Part shown: positions 4,120 through 34,458 of the stretch, piece by piece
Numbering within the stretch: the first letter of the stretch is position 1
How the letters are laid out: the number at the start of each line of letters is the position of its first letter
Assembly: GCF_016865255.1 (NCBI RefSeq)
Contig: NZ_CP033381.1
Span: 992,001-1,056,000 of the forward strand
Direction of reading: 5' to 3'
DNA from: Methylomonas sp. LW13
GTDB lineage: Bacteria; Pseudomonadota; Gammaproteobacteria; Methylococcales; Methylomonadaceae
Length of the DNA stretch: 64,000 nucleotides
Made by a program: the position numbers and the translations under genes
Notes under the pieces: generated by a model
The model's database searches: none
Seen by the model: the letters and a program-made list of their open reading frames with translations, nothing else
Told to the model about the DNA's origin: nothing

Positions 4120-6888
4120 TTGAAAAACTACACTGCTACTTATTCGGTCGGAATCGATCTAGGTACCACCCATACGGTGGTCGCTTACTCCGATATAGGC
4201 GACCCTGCTAAAGCTATTCACTTGTTCGAAATTTCTCAGTTGATCGCGCCAGGCGAAGTGAGTGCCAAGCCACTATTGCCGTCGGTGCGATACCATCCCG
4301 CGCCAGGCGAAATAACGGAAGAAGCCGGATTTTTGACTCAGGAAAAAGGCGCTGTGCTTGGTGAAGCAGCGCGCTTGCTGGGTGCAAAGTCGCAAGGTCG
4401 ATTGGTTACCAGCGCTAAAAGCTGGTTGTCGCACACTTCGGTCGATCACAGCGCGGCCATTTTGCCCTGGGGTAGTGACGAATCGGTATTTAAAATCTCG
4501 CCGCTGGAAGCCAGTGCTAGTTATTTGCGACATGTCTGCGCCGTTTGGGAGCACCGTTTTCCCAAAGCACCACTTGCGCTTCAGGAAGTGGTGATTACGG
4601 TGCCGGCCTCCTTTGACGAGTCCGCGCGCTCCTTAACATTGGAAGCGGCCAAGATGGCCGGCTTGAGCGGTGTAAGATTGCTGGAAGAGCCGCAAGCGGT
4701 TTGTTACGACTGGCTGCGCCGGCATGCCGGTACCATCAAATCCAGTCTGGCCGATAGGCGCTTATTGCTGGTTTGCGATGTCGGTGGTGGTACTACCGAT
4801 TTGACCTTGATCAAGATTGAGCAGGGGGTTGACGAGCCTAAGCTGACGCGCATAGGTGTCGGCGACCACTTGATGTTGGGGGGCGACAATATCGATCTGG
4901 CTCTGGCGCATTTAGCGGAAAGCCGCTTGCGAACCGGCGATAAAAAACTCTCGACTGCCGATTTATCGCAATTGCTGGAGCAATGCCGGATCGCCAAGGA
5001 ACAGCTATTAGCCGACGACGCGCCCGAGCAGGTTGCCATAACCTTGTTGGGTGGCGGCTCCAGGTTGATTGGCGGCACAAAAAGTACGTCGCTGAGCAAA
5101 GAAGAGGTTAAGCAAATTGCATTGGATGGCTTTTTACCCATGTCCGGTTTGCAAGACCTACCGGATAGGAAGCGTAGCGGCGTAGTGGAGTTTGGCTTGC
5201 CTTACGCGGCGGAGCCGGCTATCAGTAAGCATATTGCCGCCTTTTTGCAAATGCATGCCCAGGCTGCGCAAATGGCGTTCAGTGGAACGGGCACAGAGCA
5301 TCAAATAGTCCCCGACGCCTTATTACTGAACGGCGGCGTGTTTCGCAGTCCGGCCATGGTGCAACGCTTAATCGATTTATTAGCCGGTTGGCGCGGCGGG
5401 CACCCCCCCTTATTGCTGGATAACAGCCATCCGGAATTGGCGGTGGCTTACGGCGCGGTCAGTTATGCGGTTGCCCGCCGAGACAAGAAGTTGAAAATCG
5501 GCGGTGGCGCCGCCCGTAGTTATTTTCTGCTGGTTGATGCCGCGGCCAAAAGTGGTGATGGTAAGCCTGGGGGGCATGGCGTTTGTATCCTGCCGAAAGG
5601 AAGCGAGGAAGGTCATGAGATTTTGTTAAGTGATCGGCAATTCGCTCTCCGGGTGGGCCAACCGGTACGTTTTCATTTGTTGTCGAGCAGCGGAGACGGA
5701 ACTTACCAGCCCGGCGCAATAGTCGAGCTGGATGACGAGCGCTTCCACAGTCTGCCGCCGTTGGCAGTGGCGTTCGAAGGCCAACTGAAAACCGAAGTGG
5801 CGGTGCAATTACTGGCGACATATACCGAAGTCGGTACTTTGCAATTGCAGTGCGTAGCGGTGGCAGACTCCAACCAGCGTTGGGATGTAGAGTTTCAAAT
5901 TCGCAAAAAAGCCCAAACAGCCGTCAATGCCGAATTACCTAGTCAATTGCCGCAAGCGCTGGAGAAAGTCCAGGCCGTATTCGGAGCCAAATCCAAACAA
6001 GTCGATCCACAAGCGGTAAAAACCTTGCGCGCCGATCTGGAAAACGTTCTTGCGGCACCGCGAGGCGCCTGGCAAACCCCGTTGTTGCGCGAGTTGTTTA
6101 CGGCCTTATTGGAAGGCAGTAAATATCGGCGGAGGAGCGAACAGCACGAACGCCTCTGGTTAAGTCTAGCCGGTTTTTGCTTGCGCCCAGGCTTTGGTTA
6201 TCCGCTCGACGATTGGCGGGTAGAGCAACTCTGGAAGCTGTATTCGGAAGGGCTGCAGTTCGTTAACGAAAAACAAAACTGGGCCGAATGGTGGACCTTA
6301 TGGCGGCGCGTTGCCGGCGGCTTGAATGCCGATGCCCAGCAACGCATCTTTAACGACATCGCCAAATTCATCAATCCGGCTGCCGCGCGCCAGCCGGGTG
6401 TCGGCAAGCAACTGGCTACACGAGGTTACGAAGATATGGTGCGACTGGCGGCGGCACTAGAGCGGTTGAACCTTGTCGATAAAATTCAATTGGGCAATTG
6501 GCTGTTAAAGCGCCTGGAAAAAGCCGGAGAGCCTGAACAGAGTTGGTGGGCGGTCGGACGTATCGGCGGGCGGATTCTGTTTCACGGCAACAATCATCAG
6601 GTCATTCCAGCGGAGACTGCCGAAATCTGGCTGAAACAGCTATTGAAAGCTGATTGGAAAAAGCTAACCCAGGCCGCCTTTGCCGCCACCTTGTTGGCTA
6701 GACGCTGCGACGACCGGGCTCGGGATATCGACGATAGCCTGCGAGCGCAGGTGATCGACAAGCTCAAACAAGCTAAATCCCCTGTGTCGTGGGTAGACAT
6801 GGTTGCCGAATTCAAACAACTGGATGAACAACAGGAAAAGCAAGTCTTCGGCGAAGCGCTGCCGCCGGGCTTGAAACTAATTGTTTAA
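4120..6888 (+). CDS. Divergent Hsp70-family ATPase with long C-terminal extension (DUF3731-like)
   Basis: 922 residues. The N-terminal ~480 residues form an Hsp70 ATPase: phosphate-1 motif VGIDLGTTHTVVAYSD (residues 10-25), phosphate-2 motif CDVGGGTTDLTL (about 219-230) and the adenosine motif LLLNGGVFRSP (about 401-411). No standard DnaK substrate-binding lid is recognisable. The C-terminal ~320 residues are Trp- and Leu-rich (GFGYPLDDWR, WWTLWRRVAGGL) and resemble the DUF3731 region of large proteobacterial Hsp70-like proteins. Clients are unknown. The start is probably TTG at 4120, because the next in-frame Met lies far inside the ATPase domain. No DnaJ or GrpE partner is adjacent. Confidence 0.85.
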   Translation: MKNYTATYSVGIDLGTTHTVVAYSDIGDPAKAIHLFEISQLIAPGEVSAKPLLPSVRYHPAPGEITEEAGFLTQEKGAVLGEAARLLGAKSQGRLVTSAKSWLSHTSVDHSAAILPWGSDESVFKISPLEASASYLRHVCAVWEHRFPKAPLALQEVVITVPASFDESARSLTLEAAKMAGLSGVRLLEEPQAVCYDWLRRHAGTIKSSLADRRLLLVCDVGGGTTDLTLIKIEQGVDEPKLTRIGVGDHLMLGGDNIDLALAHLAESRLRTGDKKLSTADLSQLLEQCRIAKEQLLADDAPEQVAITLLGGGSRLIGGTKSTSLSKEEVKQIALDGFLPMSGLQDLPDRKRSGVVEFGLPYAAEPAISKHIAAFLQMHAQAAQMAFSGTGTEHQIVPDALLLNGGVFRSPAMVQRLIDLLAGWRGGHPPLLLDNSHPELAVAYGAVSYAVARRDKKLKIGGGAARSYFLLVDAAAKSGDGKPGGHGVCILPKGSEEGHEILLSDRQFALRVGQPVRFHLLSSSGDGTYQPGAIVELDDERFHSLPPLAVAFEGQLKTEVAVQLLATYTEVGTLQLQCVAVADSNQRWDVEFQIRKKAQTAVNAELPSQLPQALEKVQAVFGAKSKQVDPQAVKTLRADLENVLAAPRGAWQTPLLRELFTALLEGSKYRRRSEQHERLWLSLAGFCLRPGFGYPLDDWRVEQLWKLYSEGLQFVNEKQNWAEWWTLWRRVAGGLNADAQQRIFNDIAKFINPAAARQPGVGKQLATRGYEDMVRLAAALERLNLVDKIQLGNWLLKRLEKAGEPEQSWWAVGRIGGRILFHGNNHQVIPAETAEIWLKQLLKADWKKLTQAAFAATLLARRCDDRARDIDDSLRAQVIDKLKQAKSPVSWVDMVAEFKQLDEQQEKQVFGEALPPGLKLIV

Positions 6889-6912
6889 TGCTAAGCTTTG
6901 TGATGCCGATAT
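6886..6912 (+). promoter_or_regulatory. Possible FliA (sigma-28) promoter for the glycosylation island
   Basis: TAATGCTA (6886-6893), 11 bases, then GCCGATAT (6905-6912). Against the FliA consensus TAAAGTTT-N11-GCCGATAA this is about 5/8 plus 7/8 with exact spacing. It lies about 105 bp before the first island gene, like the better site before flagellin. It is the weakest of the three such sites in the window. Confidence 0.45.
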
Positions 6913-7018
6913 AACAATCAACAGCGGCACGTTACCTGAACCGGTTATTGGCATAGAAATCGCTTTATCCGGTTCAATAGCGGTTTTTCACTCCGAAAGC
7001 ACATTAAACGACAAAAAC

Positions 7019-8119
7019 ATGGCAGACAAATACGGCATAGACAGTCATAAACTGGTGTATCACCCGCAGCGAGTGGCACAGTGGTTGGACGGCAGGCACG
7101 ATTGGCAGCAAGCGAAAGCCGTGTATCCTATCTACATGGAGGTCTCTCCGGTAGGTGCCTGCAATCACCGCTGCACGTTTTGCGCAGTGGATTACATCGG
7201 ATATAAAGCGCAGCGTCTGGATGTCAAAATTTTGGCGGAGCGTTTGGCTGAGATGGGTAGGCTTGGTGTGAAAAGCATCATGTACGCCGGTGAAGGCGAG
7301 CCTATGTTGCACAAGGAGATTAATGACATTGTCAAATGGACTTTCGACGCCGGTATCGATGTGTCTTTCACTACCAACGGCACCTTGATGAACCAGCGTT
7401 TTGTCGAGCAATCCTTGCCGCTGGTGTCTTGGATTAAAGTATCGCTAAATGCCGGTAGTGCCGAAAATTACGCGGCCATTCATCAAACCAAGGCGTCCGA
7501 TTTTGACTTGGTGCTGAACAATCTGCGTCGTGCGGTCGACCATAAAAAAACCCGGCAATTATCCTGCGCTCTGGGAGCACAAATTTTATTGTTGCCGGAA
7601 AATCAACATGAAGTAACCACCCTGGCAAAAATCTGCCGCGAAATCGGTTTGGATTATCTGGTCGTCAAGCCGTATTCCCAACATCTATTCAGCGAAACCC
7701 GCCGCTACGAAGCCTTGCGATACGACAATCTACTGGGAATGGCCGAGGAACTGGCCCAATTCAACGCCGATGGCTTTAACGTGGTATTTCGCGAACAGAC
7801 CATGAAGAACTACAGCCAGTCGGAAACCGAGCGTTACAAAACCTGCCACGCCACGCCTTATTTTTGGGGCTATATCATGGCTGACGGAGAAGTGTACGGT
7901 TGCAGTGCCTATCTCACCGATCAACGCTTTGCTTACGGCAATATCCATCAGCAGTCTTTCCAAGCCATCTGGGAAGGCGAGAAACGCCGGCAGAACTGGC
8001 AGTACATCACCCAGGACTTGGATATTAGCCAATGCCGCAAAAATTGTCGGATGGAATCGGTTAATCAATATTTGGACAAACTCACGGCCAACCAGCCGGC
8101 CCATATCAACTTTATCTAG
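7019..8119 (+). CDS. Radical SAM/SPASM-type enzyme
   Basis: 366 residues. The radical SAM cluster motif CNHRCTFC (Cys48, Cys52, Cys55) is followed by GEGEP (GGE-like) and TNGTLM. The C-terminal third holds further cysteines (KTCHATPYF, YGCSAYL, SQCRKNC) of a SPASM/Twitch auxiliary iron-sulfur region. Such enzymes cleave SAM to a 5'-deoxyadenosyl radical; the substrate is not evident. As first gene of a sugar and glycosyltransferase cluster, it probably acts on a sugar or glycan precursor (inference). The open frame extends back to 6881 over the Hsp70 gene, but ATG 7019 starts the recognisable protein. It ends in AHINFI, almost the same as the second SPASM enzyme at 13329. Confidence 0.85.
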   Translation: MADKYGIDSHKLVYHPQRVAQWLDGRHDWQQAKAVYPIYMEVSPVGACNHRCTFCAVDYIGYKAQRLDVKILAERLAEMGRLGVKSIMYAGEGEPMLHKEINDIVKWTFDAGIDVSFTTNGTLMNQRFVEQSLPLVSWIKVSLNAGSAENYAAIHQTKASDFDLVLNNLRRAVDHKKTRQLSCALGAQILLLPENQHEVTTLAKICREIGLDYLVVKPYSQHLFSETRRYEALRYDNLLGMAEELAQFNADGFNVVFREQTMKNYSQSETERYKTCHATPYFWGYIMADGEVYGCSAYLTDQRFAYGNIHQQSFQAIWEGEKRRQNWQYITQDLDISQCRKNCRMESVNQYLDKLTANQPAHINFI

Positions 8120-8128
8120 GACGAACGC

Positions 8129-9115
8129 ATGAAAGTATTGGTTACCGGCGGTGCGGGATTCATCGGCAGTCATTTGAGCCGGGAGTTATGGCAACAAGGC
8201 CATCAGGTCAGCGTGATCGATAGTCTGGTTGGCGGCCGTAAAGAAACGATTGCCGATTTGCTCGGCCAGGAGCGTTTTGAGTTTCATCAGGCCGATATTC
8301 GCGACGCCGAAACCATCGCACCTTTGTTCGCAGGTATTGACTGGGTTTTTCACTTGGCCGGTCTAGCCGACATCGTACCCTCCATCGAGCAGCCGCGCGC
8401 GTATTACGAGACCAATGTCAGCGGTACATTCAATGTATTGGAAGCGGCCCGCGCCGCCGGTATCAAGCGATTTGTCTACGCGGCGTCGTCATCCTGCTAC
8501 GGTATCCCAGATCAATTTCCGACACCGGAATCTGCGCCCGTTCAGCCACAGTATCCTTACGCTTTGACTAAATACTTGGGTGAGGAACTGGTGATGCACT
8601 GGGCACAGCTCTATGACTTGCCTGCAGTGTCGCTGCGCTTATTCAACGTCTACGGCCCACATGCTCGTACCACGGGCGCTTACGGCGCGGTGTTCGGGGT
8701 GTTTCTAGCGCAAAAGATTAATGGTAAACCCTTTACCGTGGTCGGCGACGGCACCCAGACCCGCGACTTTACCTACGTCACGGATGTGGCCAAAGCCTTT
8801 ATCGCCGCTGCCGAATCGGAACTTTGTGGCGAGATCATGAATGTCGGTAGCGGCGGCACCTACAGTGTCAATCAACTGGTGGGATTATTGGGCGGTGCGA
8901 TCGAATACATTCCCAAGCGGCCCGGCGAGCCCGATTGCACCTTTGCCGACACCCGTAATATCAAGACAAAACTTGGCTGGCGGCCGCAAGTTAGTTTCGA
9001 GCAGGGTGTGGCCAATATGCTGGCGCGCATCGATTACTGGCAAAACGCCCCGCTGTGGACTTCGGCTTCTATCGCTGACGCTACTGCGGGCTGGTTTAAG
9101 TACCTGGACAAATAG
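8129..9115 (+). CDS. NAD-dependent sugar epimerase/dehydratase (extended SDR)
   Basis: 328 residues of the GalE/WbpP-type extended SDR family. Motifs: GGAGFIG NAD fingerprint (residues 7-13), FHLAGLADI, SSSCYG, the catalytic YALTK (Tyr144, Lys148) and RLFNVYGPHAR. The substrate should be a nucleotide-activated hexose, modified at C4 or by dehydration; which one cannot be told from the sequence. It lies 9 bp after the radical SAM gene and directly before the SIS isomerase, so it probably belongs to the same glycan-precursor operon. Confidence 0.85.
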   Translation: MKVLVTGGAGFIGSHLSRELWQQGHQVSVIDSLVGGRKETIADLLGQERFEFHQADIRDAETIAPLFAGIDWVFHLAGLADIVPSIEQPRAYYETNVSGTFNVLEAARAAGIKRFVYAASSSCYGIPDQFPTPESAPVQPQYPYALTKYLGEELVMHWAQLYDLPAVSLRLFNVYGPHARTTGAYGAVFGVFLAQKINGKPFTVVGDGTQTRDFTYVTDVAKAFIAAAESELCGEIMNVGSGGTYSVNQLVGLLGGAIEYIPKRPGEPDCTFADTRNIKTKLGWRPQVSFEQGVANMLARIDYWQNAPLWTSASIADATAGWFKYLDK

Positions 9116-9125
9116 GGAGGAGCCC

Positions 9126-9689
9126 ATGGCTATCGGACAAGCGGCAGCGGATTTTGCGACTTTGCTGAACAGCAGCGTATTTACAGACGCGCAGGGCCAA
9201 ACCCTGGACGGCGAATCGGTGATACAGCAATTGCTTGCCGAGTTTGCCAGAGTCCGCGACCAGCAGGCTAAGATCATGGTGCTGGGCAACGGTGGCAGCG
9301 CGGCGATTGCCAGTCATGTGATTACCGACTTGCGGAATGTTGGCGGCTTGTGCGCCTTGACCTTACACGAAGCCGCGCCCTTGACGTGTTTTACTAACGA
9401 CTTCGGTTACGAGCAGGCCTTTGCCAAACAAATTACCGCGTTTGCGAATCCGGACGATTTATTGATCGCAATCAGCAGTTCCGGCCAATCCTTGAATATC
9501 GTCAACGCGGTACAAGCTGCCAACGCCAAAGGCTTGCCGGTCATGACGCTAAGTGGCTTTAAGTCCGACAATCCGCTCCGTAAACTGGGGCGCTGGAATT
9601 GCTGGCTGGACAGCAGTCATTACGGCATGGTCGAGTTGGGGCATCTCTTCGTGTTGCACCATATTACCGATCATCTGCTCAGGAAATAA
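9126..9689 (+). CDS. SIS-domain sugar-phosphate isomerase (GmhA-like)
   Basis: 187 residues, a single SIS domain: LGNGGSAAIASH phosphate loop, then ISSSGQSLN and a final ELGHLFVLHHITDHL helix comparable with the metal-binding end of GmhA. GmhA converts sedoheptulose 7-phosphate to D-glycero-D-manno-heptose 7-phosphate. Here the residue matching the GmhA Glu after the phosphate loop appears to be Asp, so the substrate may differ. The start is ATG 9126 with the strong site GGGAGGAG just upstream. The next gene carries the kinase and nucleotidyltransferase steps of a heptose-like route. Confidence 0.8.
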   Translation: MAIGQAAADFATLLNSSVFTDAQGQTLDGESVIQQLLAEFARVRDQQAKIMVLGNGGSAAIASHVITDLRNVGGLCALTLHEAAPLTCFTNDFGYEQAFAKQITAFANPDDLLIAISSSGQSLNIVNAVQAANAKGLPVMTLSGFKSDNPLRKLGRWNCWLDSSHYGMVELGHLFVLHHITDHLLRK

Positions 9690-9693
9690 GCTC

Positions 9694-11214
9694 ATGTCCA
9701 CGGAAAAAATTGTCTCCATCGAACAACTGGCGCAGCGTGCCGCCGAACTGAAAGCGCAAGGCAAAACCGTGGCTTTATGCCATGGGACTTTTGATTTACT
9801 GCACATTGGCCATATCCGTCATTTGCAAAGCGGAGCAAGGCAGGCAGATGCATTATTGGTTAGCGTCACCGCCGACGAATATGTCAATAAAGGCCCCGGT
9901 CGGCCGGTGTTTAATCAATATTTGCGCGCCGAAAACATTGCGGCACTGGCTTGCGTCGATAGTGTGGCGATCAACCATGCGATTACCGCCGTGGAAGTAT
10001 TGGATCAGGTGAAGCCTGATTTATATGTGAAGGGTAGCGATTACAAAAGTACCAGCGACGATCTGACCGGCAATATCCAGCACGAAAAAGACGCCGTGGA
10101 ACGGCACGGCGGCAGGATTTACTTTACCGACGAATTGACGTCCAGCTCAACGCGCTTATTGAACGAGTATTTTGAGGTGTTCTCCCCGGAAATCTCAGCG
10201 TACCTGGATCAGTTCAAGGAAACGGTCGGCGCCAACGAGATTATCGACAAACTCAAGGCCTTAAGCGGTTTGAATGTACTGGTGGTCGGCGAAGCGATAG
10301 TCGACGAATACCATTACACCTCCCCCTTGGGCCAAACAGGCAAAGGCAACGTGTTTTCAGTGAAATACAATGATTACGAACGCTTTGCCGGCGGCGCTAT
10401 CGCGGTGGCGAATCACGTAGCGGAATTTGCCCATAATGTCACGTTGCTTTCGGGCCTGGGCGCCACGAAAAGCCACGAAGATTTTATTCGTACCAATTTG
10501 AACCCGGCGATTGATCCGGTGTTCTTCTTCAGTCAGGATCGGCCGACGATTGTGAAGCGACGCTATGTCGATGCCGACATCGCCAAGTTATTTGAAGTGT
10601 ATTTTTATAACGATGCGCCGTTGCCGGAGGACACCAATCGCAAGATCGTGGCTTGGCTGGACAAACATTTGCGCGATTACGATGTGGTGATCGTACCGGA
10701 TTTCGGCAACGGCTTTATCTCCAATCAAATGGTCGCGGCCTTGTCCAAAGGCGCTAAATATCTGGCGGTGAATGCGCAGGTTAACAGCGGCAATCGGGGG
10801 TACCACTTGATCACGCGGTATCCGAACGCAGACTTCTTGTCGTTAAACGAACCGGAATTGCGGTTGGCGAGCCACGATAGAGGTGCTGCCATTGAGGAAT
10901 TGGCCGGCCAGTTGGCCGACAAATTAAGTGCCCAGCACATCGCCATCACCCGCGGTACTAAAGGCGCGTTGATGCTGGATCAAACCAAAACGGCTTACAA
11001 GATTCCCGCGTTGTCCTCCAAAGTGGTGGATCGCATCGGTGCCGGCGATGCCTTTCTGTCTGTGGCCGGCTTGTGTTTGGGCGGCGGCTTGTCACCGGAG
11101 CAAGCCTTGTTCGCCGGTAGCGCCGCGGCCGCACTGGATGTGCAGATTGTATGTAACCGCGAACCGGTGCGGGCAGTGGCTTTATTCAAATACATCACTA
11201 CCTTGTTGAAATGA
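9694..11214 (+). CDS. Nucleotidyltransferase-PfkB kinase fusion, reversed HldE order
   Basis: 506 residues. Residues about 1-160 are a cytidylyltransferase-like domain (ALCHGTFDLLHIGHIRHLQ, residues 28-46; SSSTRLLNEYF near its end). Residues about 185-506 are a PfkB/ribokinase-type kinase (GGAIAVANHVAEF; GAGDAF with catalytic Asp452). In heptose enzyme HldE the kinase comes first and the nucleotidyltransferase second; here the order is reversed. Expected activity: phosphorylation of a sugar phosphate at C1 and transfer of NMP to give an NDP-sugar, after the isomerase encoded 4 bp upstream. It overlaps the next gene in an ATGA. The start is ATG 9694; an in-frame extension to 9553 would overlap the SIS gene. 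Confidence 0.85.
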   Translation: MSTEKIVSIEQLAQRAAELKAQGKTVALCHGTFDLLHIGHIRHLQSGARQADALLVSVTADEYVNKGPGRPVFNQYLRAENIAALACVDSVAINHAITAVEVLDQVKPDLYVKGSDYKSTSDDLTGNIQHEKDAVERHGGRIYFTDELTSSSTRLLNEYFEVFSPEISAYLDQFKETVGANEIIDKLKALSGLNVLVVGEAIVDEYHYTSPLGQTGKGNVFSVKYNDYERFAGGAIAVANHVAEFAHNVTLLSGLGATKSHEDFIRTNLNPAIDPVFFFSQDRPTIVKRRYVDADIAKLFEVYFYNDAPLPEDTNRKIVAWLDKHLRDYDVVIVPDFGNGFISNQMVAALSKGAKYLAVNAQVNSGNRGYHLITRYPNADFLSLNEPELRLASHDRGAAIEELAGQLADKLSAQHIAITRGTKGALMLDQTKTAYKIPALSSKVVDRIGAGDAFLSVAGLCLGGGLSPEQALFAGSAAAALDVQIVCNREPVRAVALFKYITTLLK

Positions 11215-13305: not shown

Positions 13306-13328
13306 CGCATTGAACAGAGCATCAAACC

Positions 13329-14720: not shown

Positions 14721-14737
14721 TTGCGCTGGAATGCACG

Positions 14738-19701: not shown

Positions 19702-19713
19702 AAGGTAATTGCG

Positions 19714-23976: not shown

Positions 23977-24003
23977 GCATTGTCCGGGCAATCTAATTCA
24001 ACA

Positions 24004-25152: not shown

Positions 25153-25185
25153 GTCAAGCAGCTTCTTTAAACGTTCAGGAGACGT

Positions 25186-25947
25186 ATGAGTACATTCGAC
25201 GGTTTTCGCAAAACGGGTACCGATCAATCCACCGAAGACAGACTGCAACAACATTGTGCCAACTTTGCTATCGATCCGCTGACTGCTGTCAAGCTGTTTC
25301 CAGTGCTAGCGCGTCGGCAGTGGTTAAAACGGTTTTTGGCGCATGCCGAGCTGTTCAAACACACGTTGAACGTACCGGGCGATATTGCTGAGTTTGGCGT
25401 GTTTCGGGGGCTAAGTTTAATGACTTGGGCTAATTTACTGGAAACTTATGCGATTGGTGATCGAACCAAAGTTGTTTATGGCTTTGACAATTGGCGGGGA
25501 TTTACCGAATTCGCTGCGCAGGACGGTAAGCCCACTGCTGAAGTCGATAAAGTCCTGGGTGGTTACGATTCATCGGGCTTTAAATCCGAGCTGGAAGCGG
25601 CATTGGCTATTTTCGATGCTGACCGGTTTGTGCCTTGGAAGCCCCGGGTGAAACTCATCGAAGGGGATATTGGTGACACTGTGCCGCGATTTGTGGCTGA
25701 AAATCCTGGCGTCCGGTTTTCATTAGTACATTTTGATTGCGATTTGTATACGCCGACCAAAGCCGCCTTAGAGGCAATTTGGCCGAAAGTCAGCAGGGGA
25801 GGAGTGGTGCTGTTCGATGAGTATGCCTTGAAGGAATGGGAAGGCGAAAGCCAAGCGGTGGACGAGTTTTTTGCGAATCAGCCGAATCTAAGGCTGCTCA
25901 CACTGGAGTGGACTAACTCGCCGGCAGCCTATCTGATCAAGCCTTAA
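25186..25947 (+). CDS. TylF/MycF-family O-methyltransferase
   Basis: 253 residues of the macrocin O-methyltransferase family: GDIAEFGVFRGLSL SAM-binding loop, VYGFDNWRGF, the metal-binding HFDCDLYTPTKAALE, GGVVLFDEYAL. TylF-type enzymes O-methylate sugar hydroxyls with SAM and Mg2+; homologues are common in bacterial polysaccharide clusters. A good Shine-Dalgarno (AGGAGA) precedes ATG 25186. Together with the previous gene it suggests at least two methyl groups on the glycan. Confidence 0.85.
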   Translation: MSTFDGFRKTGTDQSTEDRLQQHCANFAIDPLTAVKLFPVLARRQWLKRFLAHAELFKHTLNVPGDIAEFGVFRGLSLMTWANLLETYAIGDRTKVVYGFDNWRGFTEFAAQDGKPTAEVDKVLGGYDSSGFKSELEAALAIFDADRFVPWKPRVKLIEGDIGDTVPRFVAENPGVRFSLVHFDCDLYTPTKAALEAIWPKVSRGGVVLFDEYALKEWEGESQAVDEFFANQPNLRLLTLEWTNSPAAYLIKP

Positions 25948-25972
25948 TCCAAATGCTGAAGGATGTACTGCA

Positions 25973-27649
25973 ATGAATCTTAGCGATGCACTTACCGATA
26001 CCGCTGTCCTAAGAACAGCGGCGCTGGCTGCATTGGGCGATGGTTGGCGTGAAATGCTGAATGGCGAGTCGTTTAATCATGCGGTTTACGCGCAAGCCTT
26101 GATCACCGTGTTGAGACAGTATTTACCTAGCGGCACGGTGGCGATTCGTGGGATTTCGCCGGTGACCGGCTTGTTATGCGAACAACTGGCCGACCTGCCG
26201 TATCGAGTTGCGATTGATCCGCTCGATAACTCAACAAATCGGCGTCAATTTTGTGGTGTGCCGCTGCAACGTGGCCGCACTGCAGATGCCGTACTTAACG
26301 CGCTTGTCGCTAATAAGGCTAACGCGACGGAAGCCGGCGTGCTGGGTATTGACAATCCCGATGTGGAGCTTGCTTATGCCTTGCTATTGAATCAGCATCG
26401 ACGGGATTTGGCAGAGCGATTGAATCAACGATTGGCAGCTAGTGCGCCAGTGGTTTTGTTTGTCGCCAAAAATGCATATTACAACCAGCTAAGAATGAGT
26501 GTTAGTTTGCGTAGACAGGGCTTCTACACGTTAGCGGTTACCTTTAATCCCGATTTGCGAGACCACAAGGCCGGATATTTCGATGAGATTCTGTCGACCG
26601 ATCTGCTTAGTTTTTTGTTGTGGTTGAAAGGCGCAAGTGGGGCGGTAATTCATACTCAAGGTTGGCTGTTTCGCTACCATATTCCCGTGTTAATCGATGC
26701 GTTTTTACCGAGTAGCTGCCGGCAGTTCGTTGAGTTGATGGATTTAAACTCATTTTTTTTTGCACCGGATGACCTACCGCAGTTACTGCCTTATATGAGG
26801 CAAACTTGGGGCGATGGTGTGGATGCGATGCAAAAAGTACAACTGGCGTGTGAGACATACTTGGTAAACCATGTCGATGGCGTTGTCTATCAGGGCAGTA
26901 GCCGCATTGTCGATTTGTTTGATGGAGCCAGGCGGAGGATGCGCTGGTTACAGTTTTTGTGTTACCCGCTGCCGGAGTTTTGCGTCACTGCCAATGCTGA
27001 AAGGCCAATACCCGAACAACCTAGGCTGGTGTTTGCCGGTGGCGTTCCTCCCATCAATTCCAAGCATCCTGCCGAACTGTTCGGTGATGCGCAGTTGGTC
27101 GATACCGTCGAAACGATCATCAGTCAGGGTTTGGTTCTGGACGTATACAACAATCCGCTCAAGATTGCCGAAGAAGACTATGCAAATGTGTATACAGCCC
27201 ATTTGACGCTGGCAGAACAATACCCGAATTACCGTTTCCTAAAGGGTGAGTTGCCGGAGCGTATTGCCCAAATCATTAGCACTTACGATCTGGGTTTGAT
27301 CGTTTACGATTATTCTGATGAGCTTTTAGTGGGGCCGGAACATTTTAAAACCTTGATTCCTGCTAAATTGTTCATGTATCTGGAAGCGGGCTTACCCGTC
27401 TTAGTGAGTCGTCGCGCTGAGGCAACTGCCGAATTTGTTGAGCAACATCGCTGCGGAGTGGCTATCTCCAGTGCCCAACTTCACGACTTGCCCAATTTCT
27501 TGCAAGGTTTGGATTGGCGGGAGCTACGTGAAGGTGTGTTGGCCGCTCGAGAGTATTTGTGTATGGATAAACAAATTCAGCGTTTGATTGCGTTTTATCA
27601 GCTTTGCGCGCAGCAGCGGAGCGCATTGTTGGCCGATTCAGTCTGCTAA
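25973..27649 (+). CDS. Putative GT-B glycosyltransferase
   Basis: 558 residues. The C-terminal half has a glycosyltransferase pattern (RLVFAGGVPPINSKHPAE, VLDVYNNPL, YRFLKGELPERIAQIIS, and IPAKLFMYLEAGLPVLVS near residue 455, the E-xx-xG donor-site segment). The N-terminal ~150 residues have a nucleotide-binding flavour but no family I recognise. It lies between the methyltransferases and the legionaminic-acid genes, so it probably transfers a decorated sugar. The specific linkage cannot be inferred. Confidence 0.65.
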   Translation: MNLSDALTDTAVLRTAALAALGDGWREMLNGESFNHAVYAQALITVLRQYLPSGTVAIRGISPVTGLLCEQLADLPYRVAIDPLDNSTNRRQFCGVPLQRGRTADAVLNALVANKANATEAGVLGIDNPDVELAYALLLNQHRRDLAERLNQRLAASAPVVLFVAKNAYYNQLRMSVSLRRQGFYTLAVTFNPDLRDHKAGYFDEILSTDLLSFLLWLKGASGAVIHTQGWLFRYHIPVLIDAFLPSSCRQFVELMDLNSFFFAPDDLPQLLPYMRQTWGDGVDAMQKVQLACETYLVNHVDGVVYQGSSRIVDLFDGARRRMRWLQFLCYPLPEFCVTANAERPIPEQPRLVFAGGVPPINSKHPAELFGDAQLVDTVETIISQGLVLDVYNNPLKIAEEDYANVYTAHLTLAEQYPNYRFLKGELPERIAQIISTYDLGLIVYDYSDELLVGPEHFKTLIPAKLFMYLEAGLPVLVSRRAEATAEFVEQHRCGVAISSAQLHDLPNFLQGLDWRELREGVLAAREYLCMDKQIQRLIAFYQLCAQQRSALLADSVC

Positions 27650-27668
27650 CTATCTACCAGACCGATAG

Positions 27669-28370
27669 ATGAAAATACGGGTTTTGATCGTGGTGCCGGC
27701 CCGCTCGGGTTCCAAAGGACTGATGGATAAAAACGTGAAATTGCTGGACGGGCGGCCCTTACTTGCCTGGACTGCCGAAAGCGTTGTCCGAGCGGCTGTT
27801 CCGGATAGCTTGGCGATTTTATCGACTGACTCTGAGCATTATGCGGTATTGGGGCGTAAAGAAGGGCTCTGCGTTCCGTTTCTTCGTCCTTCTGTTTATT
27901 CGGGAGATAGTGTCGCGGCTTTCTCGGTGGTTGAGCATGCTGCAGATTGGTTTATCGCTGTATATGGTTACCGGCCGGAATTAATGATGTGGTTGCAACC
28001 AACCTCGCCGTTTCGTTCTGCGGCTATAATTCGGGAGGCTGTTGCCATGGTCAGCGATAGGCAAGTTGATGCGGTAGTCGGCTGCAAGGAAATTCACCGC
28101 GATTTGACTACTTTGTTTCGCCTTGAGAGTGGTCATATGTTGCCCTTGGACAATCAAAAACCCACCCAGACGTCGCGTCAACAAAGCCAGCCATTGCTGA
28201 CACCGAATGGCGCGATGTACTTATGCAAGACCGATTATTTACTGGAGCACAAATCGTTTTACCCGCCAAAGACGGTGCCGCTGATCATGAATGCAATCCA
28301 AAGTCTGGATATTGACACCGAAGAAGATTGGGCCATCGCTGAGGCGTACATTAAACAAGGATTGGTATGA
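27669..28370 (+). CDS. legF: Legionaminic/sialic acid cytidylyltransferase
   Basis: 233 residues of the NeuA/CMP-NeuAc synthetase family: VVPARSGSKGLMDKNVKLL binding loop near the start, LQPTSPFRS, and a final DIDTEEDWAIAEAYI. It forms CMP-activated nonulosonic acid from CTP. The product is called legionaminic acid because the following genes are a legB-legC-legG-legI set and not a pseudaminic (pse) set; substrate choice cannot be read from this protein alone. ATGA overlap with legB. Confidence 0.8.
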   Translation: MKIRVLIVVPARSGSKGLMDKNVKLLDGRPLLAWTAESVVRAAVPDSLAILSTDSEHYAVLGRKEGLCVPFLRPSVYSGDSVAAFSVVEHAADWFIAVYGYRPELMMWLQPTSPFRSAAIIREAVAMVSDRQVDAVVGCKEIHRDLTTLFRLESGHMLPLDNQKPTQTSRQQSQPLLTPNGAMYLCKTDYLLEHKSFYPPKTVPLIMNAIQSLDIDTEEDWAIAEAYIKQGLV

Positions 28371-29347
28371 ACAAGGTTTTAGTCACCGGCGCCGACGGTT
28401 TTATCGGCTCGCATCTGGTGGAAATGCTTGCGGCGCGCGGCTTTCAGGTGCGTGCACTCACCCAATACAACTCTTTTAATAGTTGGGGTTGGCTGGAGGA
28501 GGCTGCCTGTAAAAATGAGATAGAGGTGATCTGCGGCGATGTCCGTGATCCGCAGTTTTGCCGGATTGCTTGTCGGGATATTGATGTTGTGTTTCATTTG
28601 GCGGCATTAATTGCCATCCCGTATTCCTACCAGGCGCCGGACAGCTATGTCGATACCAACATTCGCGGCACGCTGAACATCTGTCAGGCCGCTCGGGATA
28701 ATGGCGTTAAACGCCTAATTCATACCTCAACCAGTGAAGTGTACGGCACCGCACAATATGTGCCGATCGACGAGAAACATCCGTTGCAGCCGCAGTCTCC
28801 GTATAGTGCGTCGAAAATTGCCGCCGATGCGATGGCGATGAGTTTTTTCAATGCCTTCAATATGCCTGTCACCATTGCACGACCCTTCAATACCTATGGT
28901 CCCCGGCAATCGGCGCGCGCGGTGATTCCGACCATCATTACGCAAATTGCCGCCGGTAAAAAACAGATTCAACTGGGTGATGTCGCGCCGACGCGCGATT
29001 TTAATTATGTAGAAGACACTTGCCGGGGTTTTATCGCGTTGGCCGAGTCGGCGCAAGCCATCGGCGAGACGGTGAATATCGGCTCCAATTTCGAAATTTC
29101 TGTCGGCGAAACGCTGAATCTGATCAAAAGCATCATGGCCAGCGATGTCGAATTTTTGGTGGACGAGCAAAGGTTGCGGCCGGAGAAGTCCGAAGTGAAC
29201 CGCTTGTGGTGCGACAACACCAAGATCAAACAACTGACCGGTTTTGCCCCGCAAGTGACTTTGGAGGAGGGTTTGCGCCGCACCGTAGCCTGGTTTACCG
29301 AGCCGGATAATCTGAAACGATACAAAGCGGATATTTACAATGTTTGA
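28367..29347 (+). CDS. legB: NDP-sugar 4,6-dehydratase (LegB-like)
   Basis: 326 residues, extended SDR: GADGFIG NAD motif, FHLAALIAIPYSYQ, TSTSEVYGTAQ, catalytic YSASK, RPFNTYGPRQSAR. This pattern, including SEVYGTA and IAIPYSY, matches LegB-type GDP/UDP-GlcNAc 4,6-dehydratases. It starts the legionaminic route by making a 4-keto-6-deoxy sugar. Both ends overlap neighbours (legF by 4 bp, legC by 8 bp), so translation is tightly coupled. Confidence 0.85.
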   Translation: MNKVLVTGADGFIGSHLVEMLAARGFQVRALTQYNSFNSWGWLEEAACKNEIEVICGDVRDPQFCRIACRDIDVVFHLAALIAIPYSYQAPDSYVDTNIRGTLNICQAARDNGVKRLIHTSTSEVYGTAQYVPIDEKHPLQPQSPYSASKIAADAMAMSFFNAFNMPVTIARPFNTYGPRQSARAVIPTIITQIAAGKKQIQLGDVAPTRDFNYVEDTCRGFIALAESAQAIGETVNIGSNFEISVGETLNLIKSIMASDVEFLVDEQRLRPEKSEVNRLWCDNTKIKQLTGFAPQVTLEEGLRRTVAWFTEPDNLKRYKADIYNV

Positions 29348-30479
29348 CAGCTTTATCCGCTTGGTCCGGGAGATTTATCAAACCGAACAATTCATCCCTT
29401 TGCACGAACCGCGCTTCGCCGGTAACGAAAAACAGTATCTGCTGGATGTGATCGACAGTACCTTCGTGTCTAGTGTCGGCCCGTATGTCACCGAGTTCGA
29501 AAGCAAAATCGCTGCATACACCGGTGCCAAGCACGCGATAGCCACCGTCAACGGCACCGCGGCGCTGCACGTTGCCCTGTTGCTGGCCGGCGTTCAGCCC
29601 GGCGAAGAAGTGATTACTCAAGCGGTGACTTTTGTCGCCACCTGCAATGCGATTCATTACTGCGGTGCCGAGCCGGTGTTTGTTGATATTGATGCGGCGA
29701 CGCTAGGTTTGTCGCCGCTGGCCTTGGCGGAGTTTTTGGATCGATTCGGCGAACGCTGCGATGATGGCGTTTACAACAAAACCAGCGGCAAGCGCATCGC
29801 CGCCTGTTTGCCGATGCATACCTTCGGCCATCCTTGCGATCTGGCTGGGTTGATTCGAGTATGCGACGACTTCGGCATGCCGTTGGTGGAAGATGCCGCG
29901 GAAGCGTTGGGTAGCCGACTCAATGGCCAGCATTGCGGCACTTTCGGCAAACTTGGGGTGCTTAGCTTCAACGGTAACAAGATCATCACCACGGGCGGCG
30001 GCGGCATGATTTTGACCGACGACGAGGAACTGGCGCGTCGGGCCAAACACCTGACGACCACGGCTAAATTACCGCATGCCTGGAAATTCGAACATGACCA
30101 AATCGGTTACAACTACCGGATGCCGAATTTGAATGCCGCCCTGGGGCTGGCGCAACTCGAGCAATTGCCGAGATTTGTCGAACTTAAACGTGGATTGGCG
30201 CAACGTTATCTGGATTGGGCGCAAGCCAACGGTGCGCAAATCGTCGAAGAACCGGCTGGCGCTGATGCCAATTACTGGCTCAACGCTTTGTTGCTCGATG
30301 ACCATACGCAGCGCGACGCCTTTCTGGAATTGTGCAATACCCGCGGTGTGATGACTCGACCGCTATGGGAGTTGATGGCGGATTTGCCAATGTACCAACA
30401 TTGTCAACGGGATGACTTGCGGCAATCGCGCCAACTGGCTGAGCGATTGGTCAATGTGCCCAGTAGCGTGGTCGTATGA
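29340..30479 (+). CDS. legC: PLP-dependent sugar aminotransferase (LegC-like)
   Basis: 379 residues of the DegT/DnrJ/EryC1 aminotransferase family. VEDAAEALGS and SFNGNKIITTGGGGMI carry the PLP pocket, with the Schiff-base Lys in NGNK. The LegC-like N-terminus places an FIPLHEPRFAGNEKQYLLDVIDS block before the fold core. It should aminate C4 of the keto-sugar made by LegB. It overlaps legG by 4 bp. Confidence 0.85.
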   Translation: MFDSFIRLVREIYQTEQFIPLHEPRFAGNEKQYLLDVIDSTFVSSVGPYVTEFESKIAAYTGAKHAIATVNGTAALHVALLLAGVQPGEEVITQAVTFVATCNAIHYCGAEPVFVDIDAATLGLSPLALAEFLDRFGERCDDGVYNKTSGKRIAACLPMHTFGHPCDLAGLIRVCDDFGMPLVEDAAEALGSRLNGQHCGTFGKLGVLSFNGNKIITTGGGGMILTDDEELARRAKHLTTTAKLPHAWKFEHDQIGYNYRMPNLNAALGLAQLEQLPRFVELKRGLAQRYLDWAQANGAQIVEEPAGADANYWLNALLLDDHTQRDAFLELCNTRGVMTRPLWELMADLPMYQHCQRDDLRQSRQLAERLVNVPSSVVV

Positions 30480-31657
30480 CGACTGGGGCGCCACGTAAAA
30501 TCTGTGTCGTGACCGGTTCCCGAGCCGAATACGGCCTGCTGTATTGGCTACTGCAGGAAATTCAAGCGGACCCGGACCTAGACTTACAGTTAGTCGTGAC
30601 CGGCATGCACTTGTCGCCGGAGTTCGGTTTGACCTGGCGGCAAATTGCTGCCGATGGTTTTACGATCAATCGCAAGGTGGAAATGTTGTTGTCGTCGGAT
30701 ACGCCGGTCGGCATCAGTAAGGCCATGGGTTTGGGCTTGATCGGTTTCGCCGATGCCTTACACGATTTACAACCGGACATCGTCGTGGTGCTGGGTGATC
30801 GCTTCGAAATATTCGCGGCGGCGCAGGCAGCAATGAACTTGCGCCTTCTCATCGCGCATATCCACGGCGGCGAACTGACCGAAGGCGCGGTGGATGATGC
30901 CATTCGTCATGCCATCAGCAAAATGGCCCATCTACATTTCACCTCAACCGAGGTTTACCGGCAGCGGGTGATTCAGCTCGGTGAGCAGCCTAATCGCGTG
31001 TTCAACGTCGGCGCACCGGGACTAGACAGCGTTTATAAGTTGCCATTGCTGGATAAAACTGAGCTGGAACAAGCGCTGGATTTCAAGTTTGGGACACGCA
31101 ACCTGATGGTCACCTTTCATCCGGTGACTTTGGAAGCGGCGACGGCGGCTGAGCAGTTTGCCGAGTTGTTGCGGGCTTTGGATGAGTTTGACGATGTGCA
31201 TATCATATTCACCCATGCCAATGCCGATGCCGACGGCCGGGTTATCGCCAGCATGATAGAGGAGTATCGACGACGCCATTCCCGCCGAGTAAGTAGCTAT
31301 GTTTCCCTGGGTTCTCTGCGTTATTTGTCGACCCTGAAGTTGGTCGATGCGGTAGTCGGCAATTCGTCCAGCGGTATCATAGAAGCGCCGGCTTTTCGTA
31401 TCGCTACTGTCAATATCGGTGATCGCCAGCGGGGACGGATCTGTGCCGGTAGCGTAATCCACTGCGCGCCGCAAACCGATGCGATCCGCGCCGCCCTGCT
31501 AAAAATATTTTCCGGCGAATTTGCGAATACCTTGGCGCGTGTCGAAAATCCCTACGGTCAGGGCGGGGCTTCGGCGAAGATTAAAGAGCTTCTGAAACAC
31601 GCGCCTGTGGATGGGCTGCTGAAGAAGCGTTTTTTCGATTTAGAGGTGCTTGAATGA
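30476..31657 (+). CDS. legG: Hydrolysing NDP-sugar 2-epimerase (LegG/NeuC-like)
   Basis: 393 residues of the UDP-GlcNAc 2-epimerase family, hydrolysing branch: VVTGSRAEYGLLYWLL at the start, VVLGDRFEIFAAA, HIHGGELTEGAVDDAIRHA and GNSSSGIIEAP. In the legionaminic route it inverts C2 and removes the nucleotide to give 2,4-diacetamido-2,4,6-trideoxymannose. It starts and ends in ATGA overlaps. Confidence 0.85.
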   Translation: MTTGAPRKICVVTGSRAEYGLLYWLLQEIQADPDLDLQLVVTGMHLSPEFGLTWRQIAADGFTINRKVEMLLSSDTPVGISKAMGLGLIGFADALHDLQPDIVVVLGDRFEIFAAAQAAMNLRLLIAHIHGGELTEGAVDDAIRHAISKMAHLHFTSTEVYRQRVIQLGEQPNRVFNVGAPGLDSVYKLPLLDKTELEQALDFKFGTRNLMVTFHPVTLEAATAAEQFAELLRALDEFDDVHIIFTHANADADGRVIASMIEEYRRRHSRRVSSYVSLGSLRYLSTLKLVDAVVGNSSSGIIEAPAFRIATVNIGDRQRGRICAGSVIHCAPQTDAIRAALLKIFSGEFANTLARVENPYGQGGASAKIKELLKHAPVDGLLKKRFFDLEVLE

Positions 31658-32721
31658 GTGCGTTCATTATTGCCGAAGCGGGCGTCAACCATAACGGTAG
31701 TTTGCAAACCGCTATGCAATTGGTCGATGCTGCAGTCGCGGCGGGTGCCGATGCGGTGAAGTTCCAGACCTTTAAAGCCGAGAAACTGGTCACCCAGTCC
31801 GCTACGAAGGCTGAATATCAAAAACACACGACAGGTGCGGCCGAAAGCCAGTTGGATATGTTGCGCAAGCTGGAGCTGAAATACGAGTTTCATTTTCAGT
31901 TGCGTGATTATTGTCAGCGCCTAGGTATCGAGTTTCTTTCGACCGCATTTGATTTCGATAGTCTGGCGTTTTTGGTGGGCGAGCTAGGTCTATGCAGATT
32001 GAAAATTCCATCGGGTGAGATTACCAATGGACCGTTTTTACTGGCCCATGCCAAAACCGGCAAGGACATCATTGTCTCCACCGGCATGGCCACGCTAGGT
32101 GAGGTGGAAACCGCGCTGGGGGTTTTGGCGTTTGGCTTGTTGGGTGGGAAGCAACCGTCTCTGGCGGCATTTCAGCAAGCCTACAGTTCGGAAGCGGGGC
32201 AAGCGGTTTTACAGGAAAAAGTCACCTTACTGCATTGCACCAGCGAATATCCGACGCCGATGGCGGACGTGAATTTGCGGGCGATGGATGTGTTGCAGCA
32301 GGCTTTTCGCCTGCCGGTCGGTTATTCGGATCACACCGAAGGGCTGGTCGTGCCGATCGCCGCCGTGGCGCGGGGCGCGGTATTGATAGAAAAACATTTC
32401 ACCTTGGACCGAAGTCAAAAAGGCCCTGATCACCAAGTGTCACTGGAACCGGCTGAATTAAAGCAAATGGTGCAGGATATTCGCGCCGTCGAACAGGCAC
32501 TTGGCCGTCCCGGCAAGATGCCGCAAGCGGTGGAATTGCAAAATCGCACGGTCGCCCGCAAAAGTTTGGTGGCGAATAGTTTGATAGCAGTGGGTGAAAC
32601 TTTTAGCGCCGAAAATTTGACGACCAAGCGGCCTGGAACCGGTCTGAGTCCGATGGAATATTGGCGATTGCTTGGTCAAACCAGTCATCGTTGTTATGAC
32701 GTGGATGACTTGATCGAATGA
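31654..32721 (+). CDS. legI: Legionaminic acid synthase (NeuB family)
   Basis: 355 residues: an N-terminal NeuB barrel (IIAEAGVNHNGSLQTA, DAVKFQTFKAE, KIPSGEITN, GYSDHT, EKHFTLDRSQKGPDH) and a C-terminal SAF/antifreeze-like domain (about 290-350, TTKRPGTGLSP). It condenses the 6-carbon precursor with phosphoenolpyruvate to give the nine-carbon acid. It sits between legG and the acetyltransferase with 4-bp overlaps on both sides. Confidence 0.9.
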   Translation: MSAFIIAEAGVNHNGSLQTAMQLVDAAVAAGADAVKFQTFKAEKLVTQSATKAEYQKHTTGAAESQLDMLRKLELKYEFHFQLRDYCQRLGIEFLSTAFDFDSLAFLVGELGLCRLKIPSGEITNGPFLLAHAKTGKDIIVSTGMATLGEVETALGVLAFGLLGGKQPSLAAFQQAYSSEAGQAVLQEKVTLLHCTSEYPTPMADVNLRAMDVLQQAFRLPVGYSDHTEGLVVPIAAVARGAVLIEKHFTLDRSQKGPDHQVSLEPAELKQMVQDIRAVEQALGRPGKMPQAVELQNRTVARKSLVANSLIAVGETFSAENLTTKRPGTGLSPMEYWRLLGQTSHRCYDVDDLIE

Positions 32722-33365
32722 GTAAGCCGGTCATTTTGCTGGGAAGCGGCGGACATGCGCGGGTGCTGCTCGACATGTTACGGCGGTTGGAGATTGAGAT
32801 ACTGGGCATAGCCGATCCTCACCGACTGCCCGGCAGCGAGCACTTCGGAGTGAGGGTACTGGGCGACGACTCGGCTATACGGGCTTATGCGGCGGATGGT
32901 ATCGCGTTAGTTAACGGCATTGGTTCTCTACCGCGCGATGCAGGCTTGCGCGAGACCTTGTATCAACGATGTGTGGCGCAAGGTTATCGGTTTCAAACAG
33001 TGGTCGATCCTCGCGCGTTTACAGCAAGCGATGTGCAACTGGCTGAGGGCGTACAGGTCATGGCGGGTGCCATTATTCAGGCAGGCACACAAATTGCTGA
33101 AAACTGCATCGTAAACAGCGGGGCGATTGTCGAGCACGATTGCCGGATCGGGCGGGATGTCCATATAGCGCCCGGCGCGGTCCTGAGTGGCGGAGTGGAA
33201 TTGGGCGATAAGGTGCACATTGGCACCGGCGCCACCATCATACAAGGCCTACGTATCGGTTCCGGCAGTGTGGTGGGCGCGGGCAGCGTGGTGACGCGCG
33301 ATGTCGGTTGCAAGCAGATTGTCTATCCGCCGCGTTCGCACATACAGGATTTGCAACAGGATTGA
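32718..33365 (+). CDS. NeuD/LegH-like sugar acetyltransferase
   Basis: 215 residues of the NeuD/PglD family: an N-terminal sugar-binding Rossmann fold (VILLGSGGHARVLLDML) and a left-handed beta-helix of hexapeptide repeats (about 100-205; VNSGAIVEHDCRIGRDVHIAPGA, including the catalytic His-Asp region). In a leg cluster it should N-acetylate the 4-amino sugar before LegG (LegH role); a later O-acetylation role is the alternative. Confidence 0.8.
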   Translation: MSKPVILLGSGGHARVLLDMLRRLEIEILGIADPHRLPGSEHFGVRVLGDDSAIRAYAADGIALVNGIGSLPRDAGLRETLYQRCVAQGYRFQTVVDPRAFTASDVQLAEGVQVMAGAIIQAGTQIAENCIVNSGAIVEHDCRIGRDVHIAPGAVLSGGVELGDKVHIGTGATIIQGLRIGSGSVVGAGSVVTRDVGCKQIVYPPRSHIQDLQQD

Positions 33366-33368
33366 TAA

Positions 33369-34421
33369 ATGAAACAGCATTGGCAGCAGGTATTGATTCG
33401 TCCGGAAGCGACGTTGCGAGCGACCATCGAGGTGATTGATCGCGCGGCATTGCAGATTGCTTTGGTCGTGGACGACCAAGAAAAACTGCTGGGTGTGGTG
33501 ACGGATGGCGATATTCGTCGCGCCTTGATTCGCGGCTTATCCCTGGAACATCCGGTTTTCGAGGTGATGAATAAGCGGCCGAAAGTTGCCGCTTTAAATG
33601 ACAGTAAGACCCAGTTGATTGCCATGATGGAGGGTCATCATCTCTACCAATTGCCGGTTGTCGATGAACAGGGCAGGGTGGTGCGGCTGGAGTCGTTGCA
33701 GGCGCTTTACAAGCAGCCGGCATTCCCCAATCCGGTATTTTTGATGGCGGGTGGATTCGGTACCCGTTTGCGTCCCTATACGGACGAATGCCCCAAGCCG
33801 CTGTTAGAAATCGGCGGCAAGCCCATTTTGGAAACCATCATCGAGAATTTCGTTAAGTCAGGGTTTCGACAGTTTTATATAGCCGTGCATTACCGAGCGC
33901 AGCAAATCAAAGACTACTTTGGAGATGGCGGACGTTGGGGAATTAAGATCGACTATATTGATGAGACCGAACCGATGGGGACTGCCGGCGCAATCGGTTT
34001 AATGCCGGACAATTTGCCGGATGTGCCGTTGATTGTGATGAATGGCGATATTCTGACCCAGATCGACTTTTCCAGATTGTTGGCCTATCACAACGAACAG
34101 CAAGCGATTGCTACCTTGTGTGTGCGCCAATACGAGTACCAAATTCCTTACGGTGTCGTGAGATTGGAGCAGCAAAGAGTGGTGGGGATTGAAGAAAAAC
34201 CCTTGCAAAGCTGCTTGGCCAACGCGGGAATTTATGTGCTGGATCACAGTTTGATTAATAGCATCTCAGCCCAGAAAAAGCTGGATATGCCGACCTTATT
34301 AAACCAGCAAGTGGCTGCAGGCGAGATAGTCTCTATGTTTCCGGTCAATGACTATTGGTTGGACATAGGACGCGAAGCCGATTTTCTAAGGGCACAGGGC
34401 GAATTCGCCAAGTATTTCTGA
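33369..34421 (+). CDS. ptmE: CBS-nucleotidyltransferase (PtmE-like)
   Basis: 350 residues: two CBS motifs (about 1-120; LGVVTDGDIRRALIRG and LPVVDEQGRVV) followed by a sugar nucleotidyltransferase (about 122-350; FLMAGGFGTRLRPYTDECPKPLLEI). In Campylobacter, PtmE has this architecture and is a guanylyltransferase that makes GDP-glucosamine for legionaminic acid. Its presence suggests the GDP-linked route. PtmF- and PtmA-like genes are not in the window. It is the last gene before flagellin, 4 bp after the acetyltransferase. Confidence 0.8.
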   Translation: MKQHWQQVLIRPEATLRATIEVIDRAALQIALVVDDQEKLLGVVTDGDIRRALIRGLSLEHPVFEVMNKRPKVAALNDSKTQLIAMMEGHHLYQLPVVDEQGRVVRLESLQALYKQPAFPNPVFLMAGGFGTRLRPYTDECPKPLLEIGGKPILETIIENFVKSGFRQFYIAVHYRAQQIKDYFGDGGRWGIKIDYIDETEPMGTAGAIGLMPDNLPDVPLIVMNGDILTQIDFSRLLAYHNEQQAIATLCVRQYEYQIPYGVVRLEQQRVVGIEEKPLQSCLANAGIYVLDHSLINSISAQKKLDMPTLLNQQVAAGEIVSMFPVNDYWLDIGREADFLRAQGEFAKYF

Positions 34422-34431
34422 ATGAGAGGGT

Positions 34432-34458
34432 TAAAGTTCTCCAAATTCGGGCCGATAC
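34432..34458 (+). promoter_or_regulatory. FliA (sigma-28) promoter of flagellin
   Basis: TAAAGTTC (34432-34439), 11 bases, then GCCGATAC (34451-34458): 7/8 plus 7/8 matches to the FliA consensus with perfect spacing, about 90 bp before the flagellin start. This is the strongest promoter match in the island. Confidence 0.85.

Follow-up and report, generated by a model that had tools for sequence, protein, structure and literature searches.

Candidate split sigma-factor control of a sugar operon and flagellin A in a species-variable sugar island of Methylomonas sp. LW13

In Helicobacter pylori and Campylobacter jejuni, the flagellin-glycosylation enzymes and the minor flagellin FlaB are RpoN-dependent and the major flagellin is FliA-dependent (PMC3930126; here and in the following cases as far as the accessible portion of the source goes). 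Vibrio and Shewanella likewise have two flagellins, one dependent on FliA and the other not (PMC3930126, PMC3120886); in Shewanella it is flaB, not flaA, that requires FliA (PMC3120886). In Plesiomonas shigelloides, the legionaminic (leg) genes stand among polar flagellar genes, between flagellar regions I and II (PMC4481668). Here we analysed a window of 64,000 nucleotides (bases 992001-1056000) from the single-contig, 5.23-Mb genome of Methylomonas sp. LW13, in which a putative glycosylation island extends from a DnaK-related hsp70 gene to the gene of flagellin A (Table 1). The island holds two gene blocks, each predicted from gene order to be one operon: a left operon headed by the radical S-adenosylmethionine (SAM) gene rSAM1, and a right operon headed by a PhyH dioxygenase gene. 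With moderate confidence we favour a split control in which the left sugar operon would have an RpoN-type promoter and flagellin A a FliA promoter, the FliA-like sequences before the left and right operons (sites 1 and 2) being at most weak or accessory.

The proposed split would be of the same kind as that in Helicobacter and Campylobacter, with RpoN for the glycosylation enzymes and FliA for the major flagellin, and would resemble Vibrio and Shewanella in that one flagellin depends on FliA and the other does not. Methylomonas differs in being a gammaproteobacterial methanotroph with another set of sugar genes, and in that its promoter types and every regulatory step are deduced from sequence, the observations being the sequences themselves, their conservation and the presence of both fliA and rpoN in the genome. 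As in P. shigelloides, leg genes occur among polar flagellar genes, whereas here they are joined to an operon of radical-SAM and HldE-like genes and lie between hsp70 and flagellin.

An earlier, sequence-only reading had proposed a probable control of the whole island by FliA in step with flagellin, from three sites 90-135 bp before the first gene of the left operon, the right operon and flagellin A (sites 1, 2 and 3). The three sites are indeed in place with an exact N11 spacer, 106, 131 and 90 bp, respectively, before the likely ATG codons of rSAM1, the PhyH gene and flagellin A. Scoring with a FliA matrix, which that reading had suggested, was carried out with 27 Methylomonas promoters (22 flaA and 5 flgM, 14 of them distinct); this genome and the only other one of its species were not used for training. 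Eight of 30 flagellin loci were unused (two for kinship, four flaB-type loci without a site, and two divergent flagellins with sites at 2-3 mismatches); because training sites were picked by consensus likeness in a fixed distance window, the matrix is flattered. Site 3 scored 23.6, within the leave-one-out range of the training sites (17.7-26.5), and the flgM site of the same genome scored 24.7; sites 2 and 1 reached 13.5 and 12.5, below all 14 distinct training promoters. The equivalent of site 3 sits 68-97 bp 5' of the 22 training flaA genes, and the site is retained across the genus; the grading of site 2 as good was too generous, its score being barely above that of site 1. The -10 halves match GCCGATAA at 7/8 (site 1), 8/8 (site 2) and 7/8 (site 3) positions. 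The TAAA(G) core of the -35 half is present at site 3 and broken at site 1 (TAATG) and site 2 (TTAGG); as TAAAG it occurs in all 27 training sites and in neither site 1 nor site 2. A good -10 half with an exact spacer is thus insufficient to call FliA control. Every sequence test made identifies site 3 as a FliA promoter, from which FliA would transcribe flagellin A late. A FliA-type site also precedes flgM in 6 of 8 genomes (where flgM was found).

For the left operon, an RpoN promoter appears to be a better candidate than a FliA promoter, though still unproven. The earlier reading was silent on the RpoN-type -24/-12 element that precedes rSAM1, as it was on the second flagellin gene. The RpoN consensus is YTGGCACG-N4-TTGCW; the element carries the GG-N10-GC core exactly and has three mismatches at the 13 specified positions. 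Of 37 genus genomes, 15 carry an rSAM1 orthologue (66-100% identity); among 301 genomes drawn from the order, 21 do so at E 1e-60, and the combined set has 22 distinct loci (L036-L050 and L125-L131). A locus was classed as operon-leading if no open frame of at least 100 codons ended 20 bp or less upstream, frames being read from stop to stop and not confirmed as genes. In 14 of the 16 leading loci such an element is found 43-55 bp 5' of the ATG; the nine closest genomes are among them and have TTGGCATAGAAATCGCT in common, apart from the variant CTGGCATAGAAATCGCA of G043. None of the six loci in which an open frame ends 10-20 bp upstream has it. A first conservation test, confined to four element-bearing lineages, was redone with six divergent leading lineages (L045, L046, L047, L127, L125 and L126, the last two without the element) and with all twelve divergent orthologues. 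Over the six lineages the 17-mer shows 70 of 102 identities, a value reached by 0 of 300 shuffles (largest 61); site 1 shows 50, under the shuffle mean of 55.5. Furthermore, in the 400 bp after hsp70 at 21 loci without adjacent rSAM1 (G003 offered only 37 bp), no such element was found except for one three-mismatch match each in G005 and G009; therefore the element goes with rSAM1. On a flagellar RpoN matrix, the rSAM1 elements of L045, L046, L047 and L127 score 8.9-12.6. RpoN-type GG-N10-GC sites also lie before flgB in 8 of 8 genomes, before flgA in 6 of 8 (where found) and before fliL in this genome. RpoN, together with an enhancer-binding activator, would transcribe the left operon (7019-22793) from the element, which would place this operon in the hook and basal-body gene class and have the sugar machinery made before flagellin.

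Several results weigh against this assignment. The element scores 6.7 on the RpoN matrix, the lowest leave-one-out value being 9.7, and 111 places in 230 kb score at least as high; its -12 half reads TCGC, not TTGC, and the variant CTGGCATAGAAATCGCA in the same-species genome G043 scores 1.4. In the six-lineage test the leader adjoining the ATG scores 74, above the 70 of the 17-mer, and over all 12 divergent loci (without L048, which nearly duplicates L046) the 17-mer scores 113, which one of 300 shuffles reaches. Among the nine closest genomes, the element varies at 2 of 17 columns and its flanks are not significantly more variable (Fisher 0.23); it is site 1 that is quiet there, with 1 of 27 columns variable vs 26 of 89 in the remaining non-coding DNA (Fisher 0.004). 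The two Methylobacter loci, L125 and L126, are leading and carry FliA-like sequences instead of the RpoN-type element: in both, one scoring 15.4 lies within the coding end of the frame preceding rSAM1 (-247 and -98), and L125 has a second one (11.7) 42 bp before the ATG. Searching the genome for activator domains brought up 19 places (16 strong), yet the same model matches 14 of 14 control genomes, and no specific activator emerged; around four of the activator-domain genes (L114-L116 and L124) no flagellar cluster was apparent by frame reading, with no family search made. A scan of the window with the RpoN consensus gave 18 matches at three or fewer mismatches vs about 21 expected. It is the conservation of the element, not its weak matrix score, that supports the RpoN reading. 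More distant relatives of rSAM1, 53-55% identical, occur in metagenome-assembled genomes of Sulfurimonas (L170) and Nitrospinaceae (L171), and no TGG-N10-GC was found within 300 bp of them.

The right, legionaminic operon appears to lack a convincing FliA or RpoN promoter. The gap of 330 bp between the two operons, ahead of PhyH, matched only itself and one 16-base stretch when compared by BLAST with the loci studied, and near the operon junction there are two terminator-like sites vs 0.6 expected. Of the 37 genus genomes, two carry PhyH; upstream of the other copy (G040, 82% identical), in a region that aligns poorly, no FliA-like site was found (within 330 bp the best score is 1.0). For the right operon, control by FliA would thus rest on one unshared site with a broken -35 half. 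In G011, G043, G013 and G031 the Leg operon has a different left neighbour, and none of the four has a site in the 200 bp before the cytidylyltransferase gene (FliA scores up to -0.8, RpoN scores up to 2.6). These four cases are compatible with the view that no flagellar sigma factor acts on the sugar genes, their transcription being of the housekeeping type or read-through from hsp70 and the motifs being due to chance. The same view would account for 5 of 30 hsp70 loci in which the cytidylyltransferase comes next and the 400 bp hold no FliA-like (up to 4.4) or RpoN-like site. It does not explain why the RpoN-type element is conserved where rSAM1 leads, and a simple sigma-70 scan of 22700-23300 found nothing; we regard it as possible though on the whole unlikely.

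For FliA to read both sugar operons together with flagellin, using sites 1 and 2, a poor -35 half would have to be rescued by a strong composite -10 half or by an activator. Besides their exact spacing and -10 halves, the two sites are better matches than chance would give: a matrix score of at least 12.5 is expected in a random 160-bp sequence of intergenic composition with a probability of 0.002, and two or fewer mismatches occurred in 0 of 4,000 such random sequences. Scores of at least 12.5 are found at 10 places in 230 kb of the genome (the flgM site, sites 1-3, one inside fliL and five others). Allowing two mismatches, there are 12 matches genome-wide, of which four, including sites 2 and 3, lie outside a frame and within 250 bp before a same-strand start. 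Sites 1 and 2 are thus better than chance where they stand, although their selection by eye from 64 kb, after the fact, calls for some reserve. With three mismatches allowed, the window has two sites vs 0.77 expected, 17 of 100 shuffles reach two, and there is no genome-wide enrichment (84 vs 127 for the reversed pattern); the exact consensus with a spacer of N10-12 is absent from the whole genome. The local conservation of site 1 in nine genomes (L036-L044; in one of these a single spacer base differs) and the FliA-like sequences upstream of rSAM1 in the two Methylobacter loci also suit control of both operons by FliA, whereas the missing TAAAG core, the absence of site 2 in G040 and the absence of site 1 from the other 13 of the 22 rSAM1 loci argue against it. 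At the Escherichia coli aer promoter, FliA-dependent expression drops severely when any one of positions -32, -30 and -28 in the -35 octamer is changed (PMC2859248, accessible portion). These data would speak against sites with a broken -35 half but do not exclude them; neither site 1 nor site 2 alters the same three positions. On balance we consider FliA control of both sugar operons unlikely.

Dual control of the left operon, by RpoN early and by FliA weakly and late from site 1, or with the site 1 block, some 50-90 bases 5' of the start, serving the RpoN promoter as its activator site, seems to us rather unlikely: it would explain the quiet columns of site 1, whose position fits an upstream activator site, but the nine genomes are close, the block partly overlaps the hsp70 stop and nothing similar is kept outside them. 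The block 6886-6921, at and past the hsp70 stop, is near-invariant in these genomes while the rest of the gap varies. Site 1 was also considered as a general feature of the hsp70 3' end and rejected: 21 of 30 loci have no adjacent rSAM1, and none of these has site 1 after hsp70. It may be an activator site or a second, weak promoter. Three equivalent FliA sites are ruled out by the matrix scores and the upstream-region scans; of the common FliA control first proposed, the part that concerns flagellin stands, with FliA encoded and the promoter conserved, and the part that concerns the sugar island is poorly supported.

Under the favoured split, flagellin B would fall outside FliA control. No FliA site was found in the 160 bp upstream of flagellin B, which is preceded by an RpoN-like element; in the aligned flaB upstream regions GG-N10-G is present in 10 of 10 and the full GG-N10-GC in 1 of 10, with GA, GC or GT as the -12 dinucleotide. 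Two further sites were observed. Within a fliL-like gene (L002 1501-1527; G000 4832179-4832205, minus strand), 47 bp before the next, fliM-like gene, lies the FliA-like TAAAGTTT-N11-GCCGGTAA with a score of 19.7. At 60156-60172, shortly 5' of two nitrogenase-component-1-type genes (60204-63045), lies the RpoN-consensus-like ATGGCACACCGGTTGCT with two mismatches, which scores only 4.1 on the flagellar RpoN matrix.

Table 1. Coordinates of the features in the window, counted from its first base
Feature	Position	Strand	Description
hsp70	4120-6888		DnaK-related gene, left border of the island
Site 1	6886..6912	+	TAATGCTA-N11-GCCGATAT; 4/16 mismatches; FliA-like in the -10 half only
RpoN-type -24/-12 element	6948..6964	+	TTGGCATAGAAATCGCT; 54 bp 5' of the rSAM1 ATG; GG-N10-GC layout
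rSAM1	7019..8119	+	Radical SAM/SPASM (PF04055, PF13186); leads the left operon
Left operon, remainder	8129..22793	+	Epimerase, SIS isomerase, HldE-like kinase/nucleotidyltransferase, E1 alpha, E1 beta, rSAM2, 1290-aa glycosyltransferase, two more glycosyltransferases, B12-radical SAM
Site 2	22967..22993	+	TTAGGTTT-N11-GCCGATAA; 2 mismatches, both in the TAAA core; FliA-like -10, broken -35
Right operon	23125..34421	+	PhyH dioxygenase, two methyltransferases, 558-aa protein, cytidylyltransferase, LegB, LegC, NeuC-type epimerase, NeuB-type synthase, NeuD-type acetyltransferase, nucleotidyltransferase
Site 3	34432..34458	+	TAAAGTTC-N11-GCCGATAC; 2 mismatches; predicted FliA promoter of flagellin A
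Flagellin A	34549..35400	+	PF00669, PF00700
RpoN-like element before flagellin B	38532..38548	+	TTGGCATGAAAAGTGAT; GG-N10-GA, not GC
Flagellin B	38607..39461	+	PF00669, PF00700
Maf-type protein	39568..42063	+	Candidate flagellin glycosyltransferase; PF01973

In the right operon, LegB, LegC, NeuC, NeuB and NeuD are all recognized by models above their NCBIfam cut-offs (5/5), and therefore a legionaminic-type acid is the likely product of this part. The cytidylyltransferase belongs to the Pfam cytidylyltransferase family, its score with the PseF model being 116 bits (cut-off 205.7), and for the 558-aa protein (25973-27649) neither Pfam at 1e-4 nor NCBIfam at 1e-10 gave a match. The left operon combines, at 7019-14720, an unusual mix of radical SAM, HldE-like, SIS and heterodimeric E1 dehydrogenase proteins, possibly for the synthesis of a modified heptose; of the six left-operon proteins scanned (the SIS protein was not among them), none passed an NCBIfam equivalog cut-off. 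The best Pfam stretch of the 1290-aa protein (14678-18550) is a C-terminal glycosyltransferase domain. Genes for FlaG, FliD, FliS, the second flagellin and the Maf-type protein follow 3' of flagellin A; the PseD model scores 46.6 on the Maf-type candidate, far under its cut-off of 670.

Comparison with relatives shows that the sugar locus between hsp70 and flagellin (6889-34421 here) varies from species to species but keeps its place. In the five relatives for which the whole island was compared, both ends are shared, from rSAM1 to the 1290-aa glycosyltransferase on the left and from the cytidylyltransferase to flagellin on the right, and the middle differs. A cytidylyltransferase homologue (58-61% identical) stands almost directly 3' of hsp70 in 5 of 30 hsp70 loci (G002, G012, G033, G034 and G047), and in 11 genomes a single contig carries hsp70 and a flaA-type flagellin about 4-41 kb from each other, with no rSAM1 between them by coordinates. 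The accessible portions of PMC12316311 and PMC9290775 contain nothing on this locus. A broader proposal, which we put forward as speculative and consider improbable in its entirety, is that Methylomonas swaps flagellin-sugar genes in and out at this place in the manner of an O-antigen locus; a radical-SAM/heptose-like cassette would enter with its own RpoN promoter and acquire sites 1 and 2 as weak entries of the FliA type in individual lineages, whereby the sugar would be made in step with, and slightly before, flagellin.

The exchange of surface-sugar genes could be studied well at the variable hsp70-flagellin locus. If the split control holds, two sigma factors would order the sugar enzymes and flagellin in a methanotroph genus, and the RpoN class of glycosylation genes would extend, beyond Helicobacter and Campylobacter, to a gammaproteobacterium whose sugar cassette is quite different.

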